A stretch of 27,588 nucleotides of DNA, taken from positions 1 through 27,588 of the IMG/VR virus record IMGVR_UViG_3300022698_000013. One strand, given 5' to 3'. Positions 100 to 23,383 of the stretch are shown piece after piece. Both the position numbers and the translations under genes were made by a program. Origin of the DNA: a virus. The first letter of the stretch is position 1. Every line of letters begins with the position of its first letter. Below the pieces are notes generated by a model, which did no database searches, was not told the origin of the DNA, and saw only the letters and a program-made list of their open reading frames with translations.

Positions 100-281
100 A
101 ATACATCATGGTTGATCCTCCTAATGGGTGGGTCTGGGGGTTTCCTAAGAGGATGCCCTCAGATACAAAAGATGTAATCCAATGGTTGATTGACAATGAC
201 TATCCAAAAGAACACACACATGAATGCATGCACCTTCGTATGTGGTATTCAGGGCATGAGGACAAAGATGAAAGTAATTAA
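96..281 (+). CDS. small hypothetical protein upstream of nrdB
   Basis: A 61-residue protein that I do not recognise. It begins with a hydrophobic, proline-containing stretch (MKYIMVDPPNGWVWGFPK), is rich in Trp, His and Met, and ends in a very acidic, polar tail. It has no membrane segment or metal-binding Cys pair. Its start lies in an ATGA overlap with the preceding stop, and its end overlaps the nrdB start by 14 bases, so it sits inside a translationally coupled operon feeding into RNR. Position suggests a nucleotide-metabolism or replication accessory gene, but that is inference from neighbourhood only. Confidence 0.6.
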   Translation: MKYIMVDPPNGWVWGFPKRMPSDTKDVIQWLIDNDYPKEHTHECMHLRMWYSGHEDKDESN

Positions 282-1518
282 GAAGACTGGGTTAGTTGAG
301 CCATTTGACCGACAGAAAATCTATGATGCCATTGTAAAAGCAATGGTGGGCTGTGATAAGGGGGTAGATCGGAGCCTAGCCAATCTAATTGCAGAGCAAT
401 CTGTATACAACATTTCCCACGATGCATCAGATGGTGATGTCGTAGATGTGGCAGATATTCACACTGTTGTAGAGAATGCAATGATGCATCTCGGGGAGTA
501 TGATCTTGCACGAGAATACATCACCTATCGTGAGTCGCATCGTCCTGATGTTTTCCGTCCTCGTACTGCAATCAAGCCTTATGAATACCCCCATCTTCTT
601 GGGTTTGTAGATGCTATTCGTCAGTCCTATTGGATCCACACGGAGTTTAACTACGCCTCTGACATTCAGGACATGAAGGTGAATATGTCTGAGGCAGACA
701 GGCAGATTGTCACTCGTGCTATGCTGGCAATCAGCCAGATTGAGTCTGCTGTCAAGACATTCTGGGGTGATGTTGGCAAACACATGCCAAAGCCTGAGAT
801 TGCTAAGGTGGGGGCTACATTTGCTGAGAATGAGGTGAGACATGAGGATGCCTATTCTAACCTGATTGAAGAGATGGGCCTTAATGCAGAGTTTGAGGCA
901 ATCCAAGAAGTGCCTGCAATCAAGAATCGTATTCGTTATCTTGAACGAGCTAATATGTTCAAGAACAGTGAAGACCCTAAGGAGTTCTTTGAGGCCGTCA
1001 TCCTCTTCTCTGTGCTTGTAGAGAACATCAGCTTGTTCAGCCAGTTCTTCATCTTGATGTCCTACAACCAACACGCCAACATGCTAACAAAGATTAGCAA
1101 TGCTGTAGAGGCCACTTCTAAAGAGGAAAATCTACACGCTCTCTTTGGTGTTGCATTGATTAACATTATCAAGGAGGAAAACCCCTCTTGGTGGGATGAC
1201 AACATCCAGCAACGTGTTGTAGAAGAGATTAAGAAAGCTGTAGATGCAGAATCCTCTATCCTTGATTGGATTTATGAAGGTGTTGATAGCGAGATTGCTC
1301 CCTTAAATGTAGTTGAGGGCTACCTAAATCGTAGGGTTAATTACTCTTGCAATCTGCTTGGGCTCCCTGAACAAACCCATCTTCTTGAAACACACAAGAA
1401 AGAGACACAGTGGTTTGAAGATGAAGTGAATGTGTCCAAGGACAATGACAATTTCAATAAACGTAATACGGGCTACACTAAGCGAGCTCAATCAGTTAGC
1501 GCGGAGGACTTGTTTTAA
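268..1518 (+). CDS. nrdB: class I ribonucleotide reductase, small (radical) subunit NrdB with N-terminal ATP-cone
   Basis: A 416-residue R2 subunit that would hold the metal/radical cofactor and pass the radical to NrdA for reduction of ribonucleotides to deoxyribonucleotides. Residues 1-95 are a complete ATP-cone: they open with VIKKTGLVEPFDRQKIYDAI and end with the IH..VE and YDLAREYITYR signatures. The ferritin-like domain follows, with likely metal ligands Glu159, Glu189 and His192 (ExxH), Glu252, Glu287 and His290 (ExxH), and Tyr196 at the E. coli Tyr122 position. The first ligand is Glu where E. coli has Asp84. The C-terminus ends SAEDLF, a plausible NrdA-docking tail. I chose ATG 268, which has a GAGG 6 bases upstream and starts right at the cone; the frame is open to an ATG at 190, but that adds 26 unrelated residues overlapping the previous gene. 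The stop overlaps the nrdA start (TAATG). The reductase family is very secure; the cofactor type is not. Confidence 0.95.
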   Translation: MKVIKKTGLVEPFDRQKIYDAIVKAMVGCDKGVDRSLANLIAEQSVYNISHDASDGDVVDVADIHTVVENAMMHLGEYDLAREYITYRESHRPDVFRPRTAIKPYEYPHLLGFVDAIRQSYWIHTEFNYASDIQDMKVNMSEADRQIVTRAMLAISQIESAVKTFWGDVGKHMPKPEIAKVGATFAENEVRHEDAYSNLIEEMGLNAEFEAIQEVPAIKNRIRYLERANMFKNSEDPKEFFEAVILFSVLVENISLFSQFFILMSYNQHANMLTKISNAVEATSKEENLHALFGVALINIIKEENPSWWDDNIQQRVVEEIKKAVDAESSILDWIYEGVDSEIAPLNVVEGYLNRRVNYSCNLLGLPEQTHLLETHKKETQWFEDEVNVSKDNDNFNKRNTGYTKRAQSVSAEDLF

Positions 1519-3206
1519 TGAGCTTCAATTGGATGAATGAACAATCCCGCCTATTCCTTTCTCGTGGCTATCTGCAAGAAGGGCAGCAAGGCGAAGAGCG
1601 TGTAGCAGAGATTGCTAAACATGCTGAGTATTTGCTTGGCATCAAGGGCTTTGCAGAGAAATTCTACCACTACATGGGGGAAGGCTTCTATAGCCTTAGC
1701 TCCCCTGTCTGGTCTAACTATGGCACCAGTCGTGGCCTCCCTGTAAGCTGCTTTGGTTCATACATCAGCGACAGCATTGCCTCCATCCTAGGCACTCTAT
1801 CTGAAGTGGGCACAATGTCTAAGTTTGGTGGCGGGTGCTCTGGCTACTTCGGAGATGTTCGTCCTCGTGGTTCTAAGTTTGGATCAGATGGGGGAGAAAC
1901 ATTCGGATCTGTCCATTTTATGGAGCTGTTTGATACCCTCTCCCATGTTGTAAGTCAGGGGGCTGTTCGACGAGGCTTCTTCTCTGCCTATCTCCCCATT
2001 GAGCATGATGACATTGAGGAGTTTATTGGCATTGCTGGAGACGGCCATCGCATCCAAGGACTAACTCATGGTGTCACTGTTGGGGATGAGTGGATGCAGA
2101 GCATGATTAATGGAGACAAGGAAAAGCGACGCATCTGGGCCAAGATTATTGAGGCCCGTGGTGAGGTGGGATTCCCTTACATCATCTTCCGTGACAACGT
2201 GAACAACAATAAGCCGGATGTTTACAAAGATCGTGGCATGGAAATTGTCGCATCAAATATGTGCAGTGAAATTGCTCTTCCTTCTAATGAAGATGAGTCC
2301 TTTGTCTGTGTGCTTTCATCTATGAATCTTGAGAAGTATGATGAATGGAAAGACACGGATGCTGTAGAGGTGTTAACTTATTTCCTTGACTCTGTTGTCA
2401 CTGAGTTTCTTGAGAAGATGCAAGAGATGGAGGAGGCTGATGACAAAGATCAACGTCAGATGTATCAATACATGGAGAGGGCTGTACGTTTCGCTGAACG
2501 AAATCGTGCTCTTGGTATTGGCACCCTTGGCTGGCACAGCTACCTACAGAGCAACATGATTGCCTTTGAATCTAAAGAAGCTGCTAAGCTGAACGTAGAG
2601 ATTCATAAAACAATCAATGAGAGGGCTCACAGTGCCTCTGAGGAGCTTGCAACCATCTTCGAGGAACCTACCTACCTGAAGGGGTATGGGAGGCGCAACA
2701 CGACGCTCACAGCCATTGCTCCTACTAAGAGTAGCAGCTTCATTCTTGGGCAAGTTAGCCCTAGTGTTGAACCTGTTCTTTCAAACTACTATATCAAAGA
2801 CCTGTCTAAGATTAAGGCAAAGGTCAAGAATAAACATTTGGAAGAGATTCTTGAAAGATATGGCAAGAATACAGATGAGGTGTGGGGATCAATCATTAGC
2901 AAAGATGGCAGCGTGCAGCACCTAAGCTTCCTTTCTCAGCATGAGAGAGATGTGTTCAAGAAGTTTAGTGAGATCAATCCGACAGCCATCACTACGCAAG
3001 CTGCTGCACGTCAGCCTTATGTAGACCAAGCACAGAGCATCAACTTGATGATCCCACCGGGCACACCAGTGAGGGACATCAATCAGCTCTACATCAACTA
3101 CTGGAAGATGGGAGGAAAATCATTGTATTATCAAATCAACATCAATGCAGCACAGGAGTTTGCTCGTAATATGAACATCCTTGAATGCTCGGCGTGTGAA
3201 GCATGA
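1518..3206 (+). CDS. nrdA: class I ribonucleotide reductase, large (catalytic) subunit NrdA lacking an ATP-cone
   Basis: A 562-residue R1 subunit, much shorter than the E. coli protein (about 760) because it lacks the N-terminal ATP-cone and opens almost directly into the catalytic barrel. Visible active-site parts are Cys78 (PVSCFGSY) and Cys264 (FVCVLSSMNL) as the redox pair. Asn247, Cys249 and Glu251 (NMCSEIALP) are the thiyl-radical site, and the substrate-phosphate loop is IAPTKSSS. The Tyr537-Tyr538 dyad (SLYYQ) carries the radical from NrdB. The C-terminal tail carries Cys557 and Cys560 (CSAC), which normally re-reduce the active site and are recharged by glutaredoxin or thioredoxin. 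No redoxin gene is present in the window, so a host reductant or a phage gene outside it is implied. The start is in a TAATG overlap with nrdB, with GGAGG about 10 bases upstream, so the subunits are probably made in a coupled way. Confidence 0.96.
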   Translation: MSFNWMNEQSRLFLSRGYLQEGQQGEERVAEIAKHAEYLLGIKGFAEKFYHYMGEGFYSLSSPVWSNYGTSRGLPVSCFGSYISDSIASILGTLSEVGTMSKFGGGCSGYFGDVRPRGSKFGSDGGETFGSVHFMELFDTLSHVVSQGAVRRGFFSAYLPIEHDDIEEFIGIAGDGHRIQGLTHGVTVGDEWMQSMINGDKEKRRIWAKIIEARGEVGFPYIIFRDNVNNNKPDVYKDRGMEIVASNMCSEIALPSNEDESFVCVLSSMNLEKYDEWKDTDAVEVLTYFLDSVVTEFLEKMQEMEEADDKDQRQMYQYMERAVRFAERNRALGIGTLGWHSYLQSNMIAFESKEAAKLNVEIHKTINERAHSASEELATIFEEPTYLKGYGRRNTTLTAIAPTKSSSFILGQVSPSVEPVLSNYYIKDLSKIKAKVKNKHLEEILERYGKNTDEVWGSIISKDGSVQHLSFLSQHERDVFKKFSEINPTAITTQAAARQPYVDQAQSINLMIPPGTPVRDINQLYINYWKMGGKSLYYQININAAQEFARNMNILECSACEA

Positions 3207-3388
3207 TTGACTATCCATACTCTGTCAAGTTTGAGATGCATGGGGATGTGTTCTATATCCCCTGCACCTCTGAACGGGAGGCAAAGAAAGTGTTGAACAA
3301 TTATAGAACACGTCCTGTACAAAACCTACAGATGCAGACACATGGTGTTCTGCATGTAGATAGCCTCAGAAAGGAGGGCAAGAAATGA
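3203..3388 (+). CDS. small hypothetical protein downstream of nrdA
   Basis: A 61-residue protein starting in an ATGA overlap with the nrdA stop and ending in an ATGA overlap with the next gene. It has a beta-like N-terminal half (SVKFEMHGDVFYIPC), then a charged helix-like part (EREAKKVLNNYR) and a basic C-terminus. There is a single Cys and no CxxC, so it is not a glutaredoxin or thioredoxin despite its position after RNR. I do not recognise the family. The overlapping starts and stops on both sides argue that it is expressed. Confidence 0.6.
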   Translation: MIDYPYSVKFEMHGDVFYIPCTSEREAKKVLNNYRTRPVQNLQMQTHGVLHVDSLRKEGKK

Positions 3389-3543
3389 CTAAAGACGGCA
3401 AATGTGAATGTCATGCATTCGAGCCAGATGAATGTACCTGTGGGGCATGGGATGATGTGGCAGAGGGATGGTATGGGGATGAAGAGCTTCTCAATGCCTC
3501 TCTTGCAGATATTGATGAAGTGTTAGAGGAGGAAGAGAAATGA
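3385..3543 (+). CDS. 52-residue acidic protein with two CxC motifs, last gene of the RNR operon
   Basis: A short frame starting in an ATGA overlap (3385-3388) and ending at TGA 3541-3543. Good spacing from AAGGAGGGC just upstream supports the start. It encodes an N-terminal Cys-rich segment with Cys-Glu-Cys-His and Cys-Thr-Cys-Gly separated by eight residues, followed by a strongly acidic tail ending in five consecutive charged residues. Four Cys plus a His in about 13 residues is the pattern of a small zinc-binding or redox-active knuckle. The function is unknown. A redox partner for the neighbouring RNR is conceivable but only by location. It is the last gene before the terminator. Confidence 0.6.
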   Translation: MTKDGKCECHAFEPDECTCGAWDDVAEGWYGDEELLNASLADIDEVLEEEEK

Positions 3544-3577
3544 GTTTGTACTTACATTATTTACAATAGAAAATAAA

Positions 3578-3599
3578 AAGAGCCCTCATTGGGGCTCTT
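3578..3599. terminator. bidirectional factor-independent terminator between convergent operons
   Basis: An 8-bp perfect stem (AAGAGCCC / GGGCTCTT) with a 6-base loop. On the minus strand it is followed by TTTATTTTC, a strong U-rich tail after the endolysin gene. On the plus strand it is followed by CTTTATA, a weaker tail after the RNR operon. It lies in the only gap (3544-3629) between the two converging gene blocks, so it probably ends both transcripts. Confidence 0.85.
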
Positions 3600-3629
3600 C
3601 TTTATACTGTGTTGTTTACAGAATCTTAT

Positions 3630-9700: not shown

Positions 9701-11687
9701 ATGCGTTAGACAAATCAAGAACCTTACCAAGAGCTTCCCCACCAAACATACTCTCAAGACGAGAGAGGCGATATTGTGCAGCACCCCCCCGCTCAAACAT
9801 AGAGCCTCTACCACGAGGGAGAGTCTCAAGAGGTGTACGCGCAATCATCGCTGCCCTATCAGCACCAAAAGTATGTGAGCCTGTGGAGGAAAGCTCTTCA
9901 CCTTCAATCATACGATAGGTGAATGGATCATAAGTGGAGGCACGATCAATACGAGCAAACACCTTTCCCTCATATCCATCTTCCGCTAGCTTCAACCCAT
10001 CCTTAGTTTCCTTAAGATAGGTGACACCTGCATTCTTCCCAAACAAGTCAGACATCGTTTCCTTAGCATCATCAAGAGAGGTGAAGCCCTTGCCCTTATC
10101 CTCCCCATAGAGAGCAGACACAATAGGAACACCCCTCTCATCTTGTTTAAGGATGATGTTGCCTTCTTGGATTACAGCCCCACTTAGCTTCTCATTTTGA
10201 ATAACATCTGCCTGAGCTTGGAGGGTTCGCTGTGCCTCTTCCTTGGAAAAGAAGGCAGGATTAGACATAAGAGCCATAGGATCAAATGCCTCAACAGAAG
10301 CATTACCCGCCCCATCAGATGTCTTAGGGTAGAGCATAGCCTCAAGCTGTTGGTCAATACTCATTCCTGTAAAGTTGGTTGCTACCTCATCATCTCCCGT
10401 GGCAATGAGTCGATTTTGAACAGCACGAGCTTCTTCAGGGTTAATGTCCCTCATCTTGTCAGCCATGCTGTTAACACGCATAGAGTTTTTGACAGCCACA
10501 GCGCCACGAGCAACACCCTTAACAGCTCGTAGAACTAGAGCAGCTACAGGAAGTGTAGATAAAGCTCCCTCACTATCCATAACTGCACGATCAAACCCAC
10601 TAAACCCTTCTCCTTCAAGATATGGGGAGAAGATTTCACTCATCAAATATTGATCTTGTAGGGTGTAGTGAGTGGGTCTTTCCTTGTATTGAGTGCCTGC
10701 TACAGAGATACCTTCTCTCATCTTTCTAAAAGCACCTATAATACGTTGGGCATACTTCTCCTTCTCTTTCCCTTTCAAGGACTCCAACTTACTTTGCACT
10801 TCATTTACAAGCTCACCCGGAGCAAGAGAGTTCCAATATTCCTTGGCCTTACTACCCTCTGGTTCAAAAGCTTTCTGAAACCTGCGCATCCCCTCGTTGT
10901 AGCCAATATCCACTCCGGGAACCCACGGCAGTGACATGTTAACAACACCACCATAGTATTGAGAAAAGGCAGATGCCTTCTGTAGCCAATCCCCTTCAAA
11001 GGTGAGATCAGATGCATATTCCGATTGCATAAACTCAAGAACATTTCTACGGATGTCCTGAGCTGTATCATAATATTGATTGAGGGCTTTGACAGCCTCT
11101 GGCTGCTGGCCAATTGCCTTAGCTGTGGCAGTGTCCATCATCATATCAACGGTGTTGAGGCCCTTATCAATATCTTGTGCAATGCCATGAAGAGCATCCA
11201 TCTTGTCTTTTTGATTGATAGAAGAGTCCTCGATGATGGTTCGAGCAGCATTTTTACTCTGCTCAACATACTTATCACCAAGAACTACCTTAATCTGATG
11301 GAGGCGATCACTCTTCCCAACATCGTCAAGTTCTTGAGCAATATCAAAATATGCTTTCTCAGGAGATTCACCAGAGCCAACAATAGATTCTAGATTATAG
11401 ACAGCAGCAAGAGCTTCTTTCTTTGTGTGGAGGTTTTGTGGGTCTTGTGGCTTATCATCTTCAAGAGTGAATACTGGGGCTTTACCTCCACCATCAGGCA
11501 GATCAAAAGTAGGAGATGAAGAAGCAGGCACAGGGAAATCATTAGCAGACTGATTCTGAGGTGCCTCTGAGACGCCCTGAGAGGCTTCCTGAGAAGACTT
11601 CTGTCCCTCACCCAAGCTACCCCCATCAGTCCCAGGAATAGGCTCCTCAGAGATAATAGGATTATTGGATTGTTGGGGATACGCCAT
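6735..11687 (-). CDS. giant internal virion (ejection) protein, T7 gp16-like
   Basis: A 1650-residue protein, the largest in the window. The first 110 residues are acidic, Pro/Ser/Gln-rich and probably disordered. The rest is largely helical with scattered amphipathic stretches and no catalytic motif I can name. The C-terminal third contains a conserved-looking segment (YNFYTLLALNPQRQFVLQAA, then IPLQFMSIQHKAMMAW) of the kind seen in podovirus ejection proteins that form the trans-envelope conduit. The frame is open to 11774, but ATG 11687 (MAYPQQSN) overlaps the previous stop as TAATG and has GGGGA 7 bases upstream, whereas the extra 29 residues would run inside the gp14-like gene. No transglycosylase domain is seen here; it lies in the next gene. 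The assignment rests on size, position between gp14-like and SLT genes, and general character. Confidence 0.82.
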   Translation of the reverse strand: MAYPQQSNNPIISEEPIPGTDGGSLGEGQKSSQEASQGVSEAPQNQSANDFPVPASSSPTFDLPDGGGKAPVFTLEDDKPQDPQNLHTKKEALAAVYNLESIVGSGESPEKAYFDIAQELDDVGKSDRLHQIKVVLGDKYVEQSKNAARTIIEDSSINQKDKMDALHGIAQDIDKGLNTVDMMMDTATAKAIGQQPEAVKALNQYYDTAQDIRRNVLEFMQSEYASDLTFEGDWLQKASAFSQYYGGVVNMSLPWVPGVDIGYNEGMRRFQKAFEPEGSKAKEYWNSLAPGELVNEVQSKLESLKGKEKEKYAQRIIGAFRKMREGISVAGTQYKERPTHYTLQDQYLMSEIFSPYLEGEGFSGFDRAVMDSEGALSTLPVAALVLRAVKGVARGAVAVKNSMRVNSMADKMRDINPEEARAVQNRLIATGDDEVATNFTGMSIDQQLEAMLYPKTSDGAGNASVEAFDPMALMSNPAFFSKEEAQRTLQAQADVIQNEKLSGAVIQEGNIILKQDERGVPIVSALYGEDKGKGFTSLDDAKETMSDLFGKNAGVTYLKETKDGLKLAEDGYEGKVFARIDRASTYDPFTYRMIEGEELSSTGSHTFGADRAAMIARTPLETLPRGRGSMFERGGAAQYRLSRLESMFGGEALGKVLDLSNASIKKLDQVLIDVGGKDLSGAAVKSQYGLNQKEYEAFSSIHRHQDNMYLLNNYTEYNKLKTKGAQTVVVGEREFTASPTSWDKLKERETFYMIGEDGVPVKINRSNAKNLEDVNWFRTRKATEEVPGGSVVAFSNKANAQYKPLSPKQLNYISNYYTRMYDMNYVVRAWDKTTGEPLGAIAGAKSKKRAIELVDDLKQNYPNYTLEQTRALEMAPADLDSAITSGSANRGLFFSKRQSEALINADTLPPIESLVRSSNIMARRMSTRAAIDIDIDKWAKTFGDKATIIKDGKPMFLKDHPGLQGDSKRMPSMEEIRSANWDNPRDKADALYYANDINNRSGARNLAERRAMANKMLSIAEGLERNGVFGQWLSKALYDKAGDLNIISDIRRYNFYTLLALNPQRQFVLQAAQPLFIAGIATRDFIPGIAKGQQLFYWYGRYLRNKDFMPANAADKELFKSAIESGVFQNIAHHTYARDVASGISSGKAGEQSMRLAGQIFQGIRRVGFDAGEAQNQAMTYAIVARQYKRENPGVNLADREHVDAISSRVREYTLSMDQRGEPGYANGLWSIPLQFMSIQHKAMMAWMPKALGGNKYFSGPQKAGIFASQITLFGAEGVGMKKLVDPIFNDLSIDGTDENYVAAYGGLIDLGFLNLTGDDLNISGSFAPGGSGIPNIAEGVGKTLTNMIMYGKSPTILEGVEAALGPTGSSASKLIKMWNSISYMSDAHKGPMNFSKEDWELLAHRLGTTFSSGYSNYIKSKMAYYYGFNYSMNTGKGYSTATGNEALAKFIGIGTHREEDTFDAISKMIEESDQKYTPSAAESDGREAAKIAISLFLRRLQEHGVIGKDGNRYTAKDLPRPENGQNFDQALVIEKLATNYLQEEIHAADLVSAHIDDPLAREQFRNAFAKQLGRGVAGGEYPVMESVIEKMMGGGSKEEVFFHQLQKLCRASGNKSCDQKLDAARQQLKNTINDKEYLKSIQDLREEMK

Positions 11688-21352: not shown

Positions 21353-22885
21353 TTAATATACTCCACCAAATCTACTATGATAAATTACATCATTCTGTTG
21401 TTCTGTCCAAAATCTCTTCTTCAAAGGCTTAACAGCAATCTCTACTGCTGACGCAAGGGAGTCCTTGATGTCATCATGAGCTGGTCTAACCTTCACAAGC
21501 TCTTCCTCTAGCATTGGTGTATACCCACCCTTGAAATGAAAGATGGAGAGATTCTCATATCTATGTTCAAGAATAGAAGCAATACGCTCTTCCTTATCCT
21601 TGATGGGCTTTGTTTGCTCAATACTAAACCTAGCACCACTCTTGATTACAAGATCTTTCAAATCATTTACAATGACAGACTGTGCCACTGTTGTTTCTGC
21701 TCTGAGCTTCTTAAACTCCCACTTAGTATATAGCTCCATGAGATGGTTGAAATACTCTCTAATCTTGTCTGTTCTAAATCTGTCAATATCTAATACATAG
21801 ATTAGACCATCTTCATCAATACCAATTACAACAATGGCTGTGTAGTCTGCCTTCTTTGAGAGGGAAAAAGCGAAGTCAATGGCTGCATAGACATTCAGCT
21901 TTTTCTCATTGATGAACCAATCTCCCTCCCATTGAGTCATTTTAGACTTATCATAGTATTGGAAGTTTTCCCAAGAGAGACGATTCTCAGAGGAATGGTT
22001 GGTTTCTTGGTAGTATTGTGCATAGAACTGAGTGGCATCAAGATACTTGGCCTTCTTACGAGCCAATTCCTTCATGTCGAATCCGAAGGGCTTCCCATCA
22101 CTGCCTCTGTATGACTTGGGCCAGAGGAAGTCTCCATCAGTTTCCACAACACGAATAAATGTAGTGTATACATCTCTGTGTCCCACAATCTCATTATCTT
22201 CTCCCTCAAATACTGGCTCACTCATTGACATCAGATCAGTGTAGATGTCATTGGGGTGGTAGCGTGTACCTACCACTGTCTCAGATGCCCCTGTAGTTTC
22301 AATAGATGCAAGCTGGGAGTATTGCTTAGAGACAGTGCTCCGACCTTCTTCTGTGTAGGCATTGTTAGGCACTACGATATCATCTAGGAATACATCTGTT
22401 GCGTGAAAGCCTGTGATGTTAGTGGTGAGGCCAGCAGCAAATACAGAGGAGTCACGAACACTCTCACGGCGTCTAATAGGGTGGTCAACGGAGATTTCTA
22501 CGTTAGTCCATTTCTCCCTCTTCCCTTCCTCTTTATTAATCATGTCAGGCCAATAGCGCCTATACACATCAGATGTGAGGATGTCCTTAATAGCCTTTAG
22601 CTGTTTCTCTGCTAGGGCAGAAGTAGCAGACACGTAGAGGATGGTTTTGGCTGGATCACGAGTGAGAAGCCATGCAGCTTTTACAGCAGCACAGTGAGAT
22701 TTCTGATGGTCACGAGGGAGGAGGGCAAGGGTGTTGTCACTCTCTGATCCAATCTTCCCCATCCAGAAACCAAACAGCTCCTCATGCACATCTCCATAGA
22801 CACGGAGAGGATTAACAAGCTTAGCGAAGAATCTAAGGTCTTCCTCTGCCGCCTGTCTAATCTCATCCATCTTCTTAACTGACAT
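21353..22885 (-). CDS. terL: terminase large subunit (packaging ATPase and nuclease)
   Basis: A 510-residue protein with both enzyme halves. The N-terminal ATPase has a phage-type, glycine-poor Walker A (LPRDHQKS, 56-63, with Lys62), an SATSALAEKQ segment at 86-95, and Walker B DVFLDD at 164-169. The C-terminal RNase H-like nuclease has Asp337 (AAIDFAF) with Asp347 (KADYTAIV), Glu397 (RAETTV) and Asp471/472 (HDDIKDS) as likely metal ligands. It cuts concatemeric DNA and drives it through the portal. The start overlaps the o-spanin stop (TAATG at 22885). No small terminase gene is recognisable beside it. The spanin-TerL order matches T7 genes 18.5/18.7 and 19. Confidence 0.93.
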   Translation of the reverse strand: MSVKKMDEIRQAAEEDLRFFAKLVNPLRVYGDVHEELFGFWMGKIGSESDNTLALLPRDHQKSHCAAVKAAWLLTRDPAKTILYVSATSALAEKQLKAIKDILTSDVYRRYWPDMINKEEGKREKWTNVEISVDHPIRRRESVRDSSVFAAGLTTNITGFHATDVFLDDIVVPNNAYTEEGRSTVSKQYSQLASIETTGASETVVGTRYHPNDIYTDLMSMSEPVFEGEDNEIVGHRDVYTTFIRVVETDGDFLWPKSYRGSDGKPFGFDMKELARKKAKYLDATQFYAQYYQETNHSSENRLSWENFQYYDKSKMTQWEGDWFINEKKLNVYAAIDFAFSLSKKADYTAIVVIGIDEDGLIYVLDIDRFRTDKIREYFNHLMELYTKWEFKKLRAETTVAQSVIVNDLKDLVIKSGARFSIEQTKPIKDKEERIASILEHRYENLSIFHFKGGYTPMLEEELVKVRPAHDDIKDSLASAVEIAVKPLKKRFWTEQQNDVIYHSRFGGVY

Positions 22886-23154
22886 TATTTCTCCTGCCTG
22901 CTATTAATAACAGAAATGAGAGACATTAGCTGTCTCCTGATATCCCCCCCAATGCTATTATTCTCATTAATTGTCCTGAGAACATCTCTTGGATCACTAC
23001 TTGTTGCCTTCTTGAATTTAGGGGGTTCTTGTAGTAATGACTGAGGCACATTACATGTTTGCGGCTTCGATAGAGTTGTTGTACAGCCTGATCCAAGCAT
23101 CCCCAAGATTATTACAATCAGGAGTAGAGACATCTTTGGCTTGTTCATCCACAT
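22885..23154 (-). CDS. o-spanin (Rz1-like outer-membrane lipoprotein)
   Basis: An 89-residue protein with a signal peptide: basic start, hydrophobic LLLIVIILGML, then GSGC with Cys24 as the probable lipidated residue (lipobox-like). The mature part is polar with a Pro-containing stretch (VPQSLLQEPPKFKK) and a C-terminal helix. It would sit in the outer membrane and bind the i-spanin to fuse membranes in the last step of lysis. Its first 104 bases overlap the i-spanin gene in another frame, the classic Rz/Rz1 arrangement. ATG 23154 has AAGGAG about 10 bases upstream; a second ATG two codons on is possible. Confidence 0.8.
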   Translation of the reverse strand: MWMNKPKMSLLLIVIILGMLGSGCTTTLSKPQTCNVPQSLLQEPPKFKKATSSDPRDVLRTINENNSIGGDIRRQLMSLISVINSRQEK

Positions 23155-23383
23155 TATCTATAATCTCCTTGGATTTCTCTTCTACATCCCTAGCTGTCAT
23201 CAAGACGGAGAGGTCTTGCTCATATTGTTTATTTTGCTTTTCAATGAGAGCTGACATAGCTTCAAGCTGCTTTGCCTTTGCATCATTTGTTGCATTATCA
23301 TAGCCAGCATAGTAAGCTCCCCCCACTACAGCCAGAGCGAGAGCTACTTTTGCTGCCAATCCCGTCCAGTTTGGTAATACCAT
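23051..23383 (-). CDS. i-spanin (Rz-like inner-membrane protein)
   Basis: A 110-residue protein with one N-terminal membrane segment (about 9-28, including VALALAVVGGAYYAGY). A periplasmic helical coiled-coil region follows (AKQLEAMSALIEKQNKQYEQ, then VEEKSKEIIDNVDEQAKDV) and a short C-terminus with one Cys. This is the standard i-spanin shape. It overlaps the holin gene by 40 bases and the o-spanin gene by 104 bases. Together the three form the lysis cluster placed just before TerL as in T7. Confidence 0.8.
   Translation of the reverse strand: MVLPNWTGLAAKVALALAVVGGAYYAGYDNATNDAKAKQLEAMSALIEKQNKQYEQDLSVLMTARDVEEKSKEIIDNVDEQAKDVSTPDCNNLGDAWIRLYNNSIEAANM

Follow-up and report, generated by a model that had tools for sequence, protein, structure and literature searches.

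The attachment of an ATP-cone to NrdB, the radical-generating subunit of ribonucleotide reductase (RNR), was published in 2018, and viruses were among the carriers named in that paper. The class Id radical subunit, NrdBi, is defined by a Glu as the first metal ligand together with a Trp, and one of its subgroups carries a Lys three residues ahead of the Trp (PMC6754362). In the NrdB of Leeuwenhoekiella blandensis, a loop formed by residues 171–175 contains Lys174, and a salt bridge joins D73 of the cone internally to R95, while D73 also touches K89 in the partner (PMC5794259). The enzyme of Facklamia ignava uses the same switch even though its cone is only 28% identical to the L. blandensis-type cone, and both enzymes tetramerize with dATP (PMC6187632). 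The β-then-α gene order was accounted for in 2022: cones on the β subunit accompany it, and it is found in 70 of 104 NrdAi operons (PMC9669993). In the ocean, viruses that carry class Id RNRs are common (PMC12918982).

The DNA analyzed here, referred to as the window, comprises 27,588 bases and is a linear record in IMG/VR. On its + strand, nrdB (268–1518; 416 aa; PF00268 and PF03477) precedes nrdA (1518–3206, + strand; 562 aa; PF02867), and the two genes overlap by ATGA. This β-α order fits the pattern described in PMC9669993. Seen in the window itself are the layout of the domains, the homologies, the predicted fold, the conservation of residues at the metal site and in catalysis, and the order of the genes. 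The ATP-cone profile PF03477 matched NrdB residues 1–92 (268–543, + strand) over profile positions 1–87 of 88, scoring 64.7 bits (cut-off 25.8; E 1.1e-17). It was followed by the ferritin-like metal-binding core, matched by the small-subunit family PF00268 at residues 101–368 (568–1371, + strand; E 1.6e-49). The 562-aa NrdA matched PF02867 (E 3.6e-88) and, weakly, PF00317, with no PF03477 match in the Pfam scan. When the whole window was searched for the ATP-cone family, a single place was found, at 268–543. A cone on both subunits was thus ruled out, since this is the sole cone place and NrdA has no PF03477 match. An earlier note on this DNA had described a complete cone on NrdB and a cone-less NrdA of 562 residues; the Pfam results agree with both statements, and its coordinates and the motifs it gave for the opening and closing of the cone were correct.

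Several lines of evidence place both subunits in class Id. The best PDB sequence match of NrdB was 5OLK from L. blandensis (E 1.8e-114), aligned over residues 2–416 and therefore covering the cone. The AlphaFold model of NrdB had a mean pLDDT of 85, with values of 73–93 in the block of cone residues 1–90, where strands were predicted at 2–4, 10–12, and 58–60 and helices at 15–28, 35–52, 61–74, and 78–90. Foldseek with this model also returned 5OLK at the top (392 columns, TM 0.80/0.84), followed by other class Id β subunits. The earlier note had named the L. blandensis enzyme as an example of a cone on NrdB, and sequence and predicted fold both show the window enzyme to be of that kind. In the model, the first bundle helix is broken near K163, between helices 142–161 and 166–172, at the place of the Lys174-containing loop of L. 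blandensis. The first metal ligand shows the Asp-to-Glu replacement (E159, aligned to L. blandensis E170), and W166 (Trp for Tyr) and K163 align with W177 and K174, which places the protein in the Lys subgroup. E159, K163, and W166 did not vary among the relatives compared, 80 of them viral and 79 bacterial. The other metal ligands E189, H192, and E252 are kept in the alignment to L. blandensis, E287 and H290 were invariant in the alignment of relatives, and Y196 and T283 are likewise kept, as they align with the L. blandensis protein and do not vary among relatives.

For NrdA, the best PDB sequence matches were 6DQX (E 4.5e-213) and 6DQW (E 1.4e-178), whose PDB names say only alpha chain. We take these two entries to be class Id α subunits of the cone-less "minimal architecture". 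The median length of class Id α subunits is 565 aa (PMC9531940), so the length of the window NrdA is not unusual. It keeps the active-site Cys triad C78/C249/C264, the N247/E251 pair, the tandem Y537-Y538, and the C-terminal C557/C560. A truncated NrdA was ruled out, as its 562 aa are the class Id norm and its catalytic residues are complete. By sequence, the window NrdB and NrdA are a class Id pair (NrdBi/NrdAi), an RNR subclass that has already been described.

The window enzyme resembles the L. blandensis NrdBi/NrdAi (5OLK, 6SF4, 6SF5; PMC5794259) in the cone at the N-terminus of NrdB, the cone-less NrdA, and the β-α gene order. The two NrdB proteins align over their full length with ~46% identity, all metal-site residues are kept, and the predicted fold matches. 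In contrast to the L. blandensis system, the window enzyme is phage-borne, its genes overlap by ATGA, and its cone lacks the interface residues D73 and I93. The Grx-cone-NrdBi of F. ignava (PMC6187632) is also of class Id, with a cone on NrdB and, in F. ignava, dATP tetramers, but it has an additional N-terminal glutaredoxin domain that is absent from the window NrdB. Among phages, a cone-bearing NrdB followed by NrdA is shared with Staphylococcus phages (Silviavirus, Sciuriunavirus, Baoshanvirus), Sporosarcina phage Lietuvens, and Salicola phage SCTP-2; however, their NrdB proteins are just 41–44% identical to that of the window, and several of them have an interrupted nrdA. Closer in sequence are environmental viral contigs from IMG/VR (L087–L166), with full-length cone-bearing NrdB proteins of 50–52% identity and, where present, NrdA directly downstream, although structural genes of the window type were not found within their 5 kb flanks.

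The cone-bearing arrangement of class Id NrdB is common in phages. In the phage collection, 66 records matched at least 80% of the NrdB length, and cone-bearing full-length homologues came from dozens of named Staphylococcus, Sporosarcina, and Salicola phages. In the five named phages examined in detail, the cone-bearing nrdB was followed by an nrdA sequence. A full-length cone-bearing NrdB was present in all of the best 80 IMG/VR loci, with nrdA downstream where the contig reaches; because these are the best-scoring matches and are biased to full-length proteins, the count indicates a common arrangement rather than its true frequency. The Pfam scan of 32 sampled members found the cone in every one (32/32), and the best 80 matches in bacterial genomes, which carry the same bias towards full-length proteins, came mainly from Flavobacteriia and Patescibacteria. 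The β-then-α order was found in the window and in 161/161 loci with both genes. With the window NrdB as a single query, no viral contig was matched, whereas an alignment query retrieved hundreds of relatives. Homing endonucleases of the HNH or GIY-YIG type interrupt nrdA in many Staphylococcus phages (L005, L077–L103); the window nrdA has no such interruption.

The distribution looks different from the side of NrdA. Among the 15 relatives collected by NrdA with >50% identity, the NrdB cone was present in 2 (L175 and L176), with L174 ending at its contig end. As most of these nearest relatives have no NrdB cone, the cone has been gained or lost repeatedly. In the tree, the window NrdB fell into a clade (support 100/100) made up of 31 viral rows and 2 bacterial ones; its branch is long (1.72), and its closest placement is less sure (94/90). 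The NrdB proteins of the phages of Staphylococcus and Sporosarcina branch elsewhere, adjoining Bacillota, so the class Id enzyme is present in at least two phage lineages. The earlier note had seen a cone that was moved to NrdB in this phage, an arrangement it considered unusual. Neither view is supported by this comparison: the cone-bearing NrdBi is an old subclass shared by many bacteria and phages, and the arrangement is found in the 66 phage records and the best 80/80 environmental contigs.

We consider it highly likely that the window encodes a phage class Id RNR with a dimanganese NrdB, the overall activity of which is set by the N-terminal cone of NrdB through dATP-driven formation of β4. 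The radical cofactor of NrdB would be dimanganese (by analogy, Mn2 IV/III), and NrdB would hand the oxidizing equivalent on to C249 of NrdA, where ribonucleotides would be reduced to deoxyribonucleotides that feed phage DNA synthesis. With ATP bound, NrdB would be dimeric and able to build the active α2β2 complex. With dATP bound, the cones of two NrdB dimers would pair to give β4, and thus the non-productive α2β4 or α4β4 complexes. The metal identity, the binding of two nucleotides, the tetramerization, and the inhibition by dATP are taken from homologous enzymes. On this analogy, dATP-driven oligomerization of NrdB is the likely mechanism, as the earlier note supposed.

The state of the switch was judged by comparing the cone with the rest of the protein and with the known interface. 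For pairs with core identity of 50–55%, mean cone identity was 34.3% for the window and 30.3% for other pairs, and for core identity of 55–60% it was 37.5% and 33.8%, respectively. A decaying cone was ruled out, as the cone divergence is not above the expectation based on the core. The nucleotide-side positions that are conserved across relatives are kept in the window (K5, K6 as an R-to-K replacement, F13, K17, I18, Y87, and R88). The L. blandensis interface residues D73, M80, K89, I92, I93, and R95 correspond to T66, M73, R82, I85, T86, and R88 in the window. M80, I92, and R95 are therefore kept and K89 is conservatively replaced by R82, whereas T66 and T86 differ from D73 and I93. At position 76, the L. 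blandensis paper gives Asp76 and the sequence gives Glu76 and Asp77; the window has E69 and N70. T66 (463–465) was found in 0/159 of the environmental and bacterial relatives compared. T86 (523–525) was also found in 0/159 of them and is shared only by Salicola phage SCTP-2, where the T66 position is occupied by K. These two replacements could alter the strength of the tetramer and retune the switch.

Carried further, the changes at T66 and T86 might mean that this phage lineage keeps the cone as a nucleotide-binding sensor with an altered pairing surface, so that dATP switches the enzyme off less effectively or in a rewired manner, not at all, or only at a higher threshold, and dNTP production persists at high dATP. 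The absence of T66 from the 159 relatives and the rarity of T86, shared only with SCTP-2, are in line with such rewiring, and a phage would presumably gain by avoiding the shut-off. We nevertheless regard it as unlikely, because M73, I85, R88, and R82 preserve much of the interface, the more divergent cone of F. ignava still tetramerizes, and the whole cone diverges no faster than the core. It is far less probable still that the cone is a non-functional remnant that came with the gene. The cone is missing in some related viral class Id NrdB proteins (among them L172–L174, L177–L184, and L188, of which L174 ends at its contig end), which indicates that it is dispensable in some phages; but in the window the domain is intact and scores well over the Pfam cut-off, its fold is confidently modeled, and the constraint on it is comparable to that in relatives. 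Cone divergence within the range predicted from the core argues instead for a functional domain, and by analogy with the characterized enzymes the NrdB cone is probably a working ATP-on/dATP-off switch that acts through dATP tetramerization.

The terminase, portal, and major capsid proteins of the window are 45–56% identical to those of the Zobellviridae phages ICP2 and VP41s3. The structural genes lie on the − strand in the ICP2/VP41s3 order and converge on the + block. By its sequence, the window is a fragment of a Zobellviridae-like phage; the record is probably incomplete, since replication genes are absent from it. The earlier note had called for a survey of whether the arrangement is routine in related phages. 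It is routine in phages in general, but no such pattern emerged for the window's own family: neither a class Id RNR nor an ATP-cone was found in the nearest Zobellviridae-like records available for comparison (ICP2, VP41s3, and three IMG/VR fragments), in a search run without a positive control and on records some of which are fragments. ICP2 has no annotated RNR. In VP41s3 (L168), an anaerobic ribonucleoside triphosphate reductase is annotated at 9714–11582, near the end of the + block. The RNR class may thus be swapped at one genome position, with an anaerobic-type enzyme in VP41s3 and nrdBA in the window.

The window RNR adds a phage enzyme to the class Id RNRs that carry their ATP-cone on NrdB, an arrangement that has already been explained, and it leaves the general picture of RNR regulation unchanged. 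With it, a Zobellviridae-like phage joins the bacteria and viruses already known to have such an enzyme, and its cone offers a natural interface variant for probing how the NrdB switch works.

Beyond nrdA, the + strand holds a short acidic open reading frame with cysteines at ~3385–3543 (MTKDGKCECHAFEPDECTCGAWDD...). An inverted repeat at 3575–3602 marks the junction between the + block and the convergent − strand structural genes and is terminator-like when read from either strand. The number of terminator-like sites near this repeat was not above that in shuffled sequences, and only its position speaks for a terminator role. Elsewhere in the window, two small overlapping genes on the − strand (22885–23154 and 23051–23383) resemble an outer/inner spanin pair: a lipobox-like LGSGC is present in one, and the N-terminus of the other has a hydrophobic stretch.
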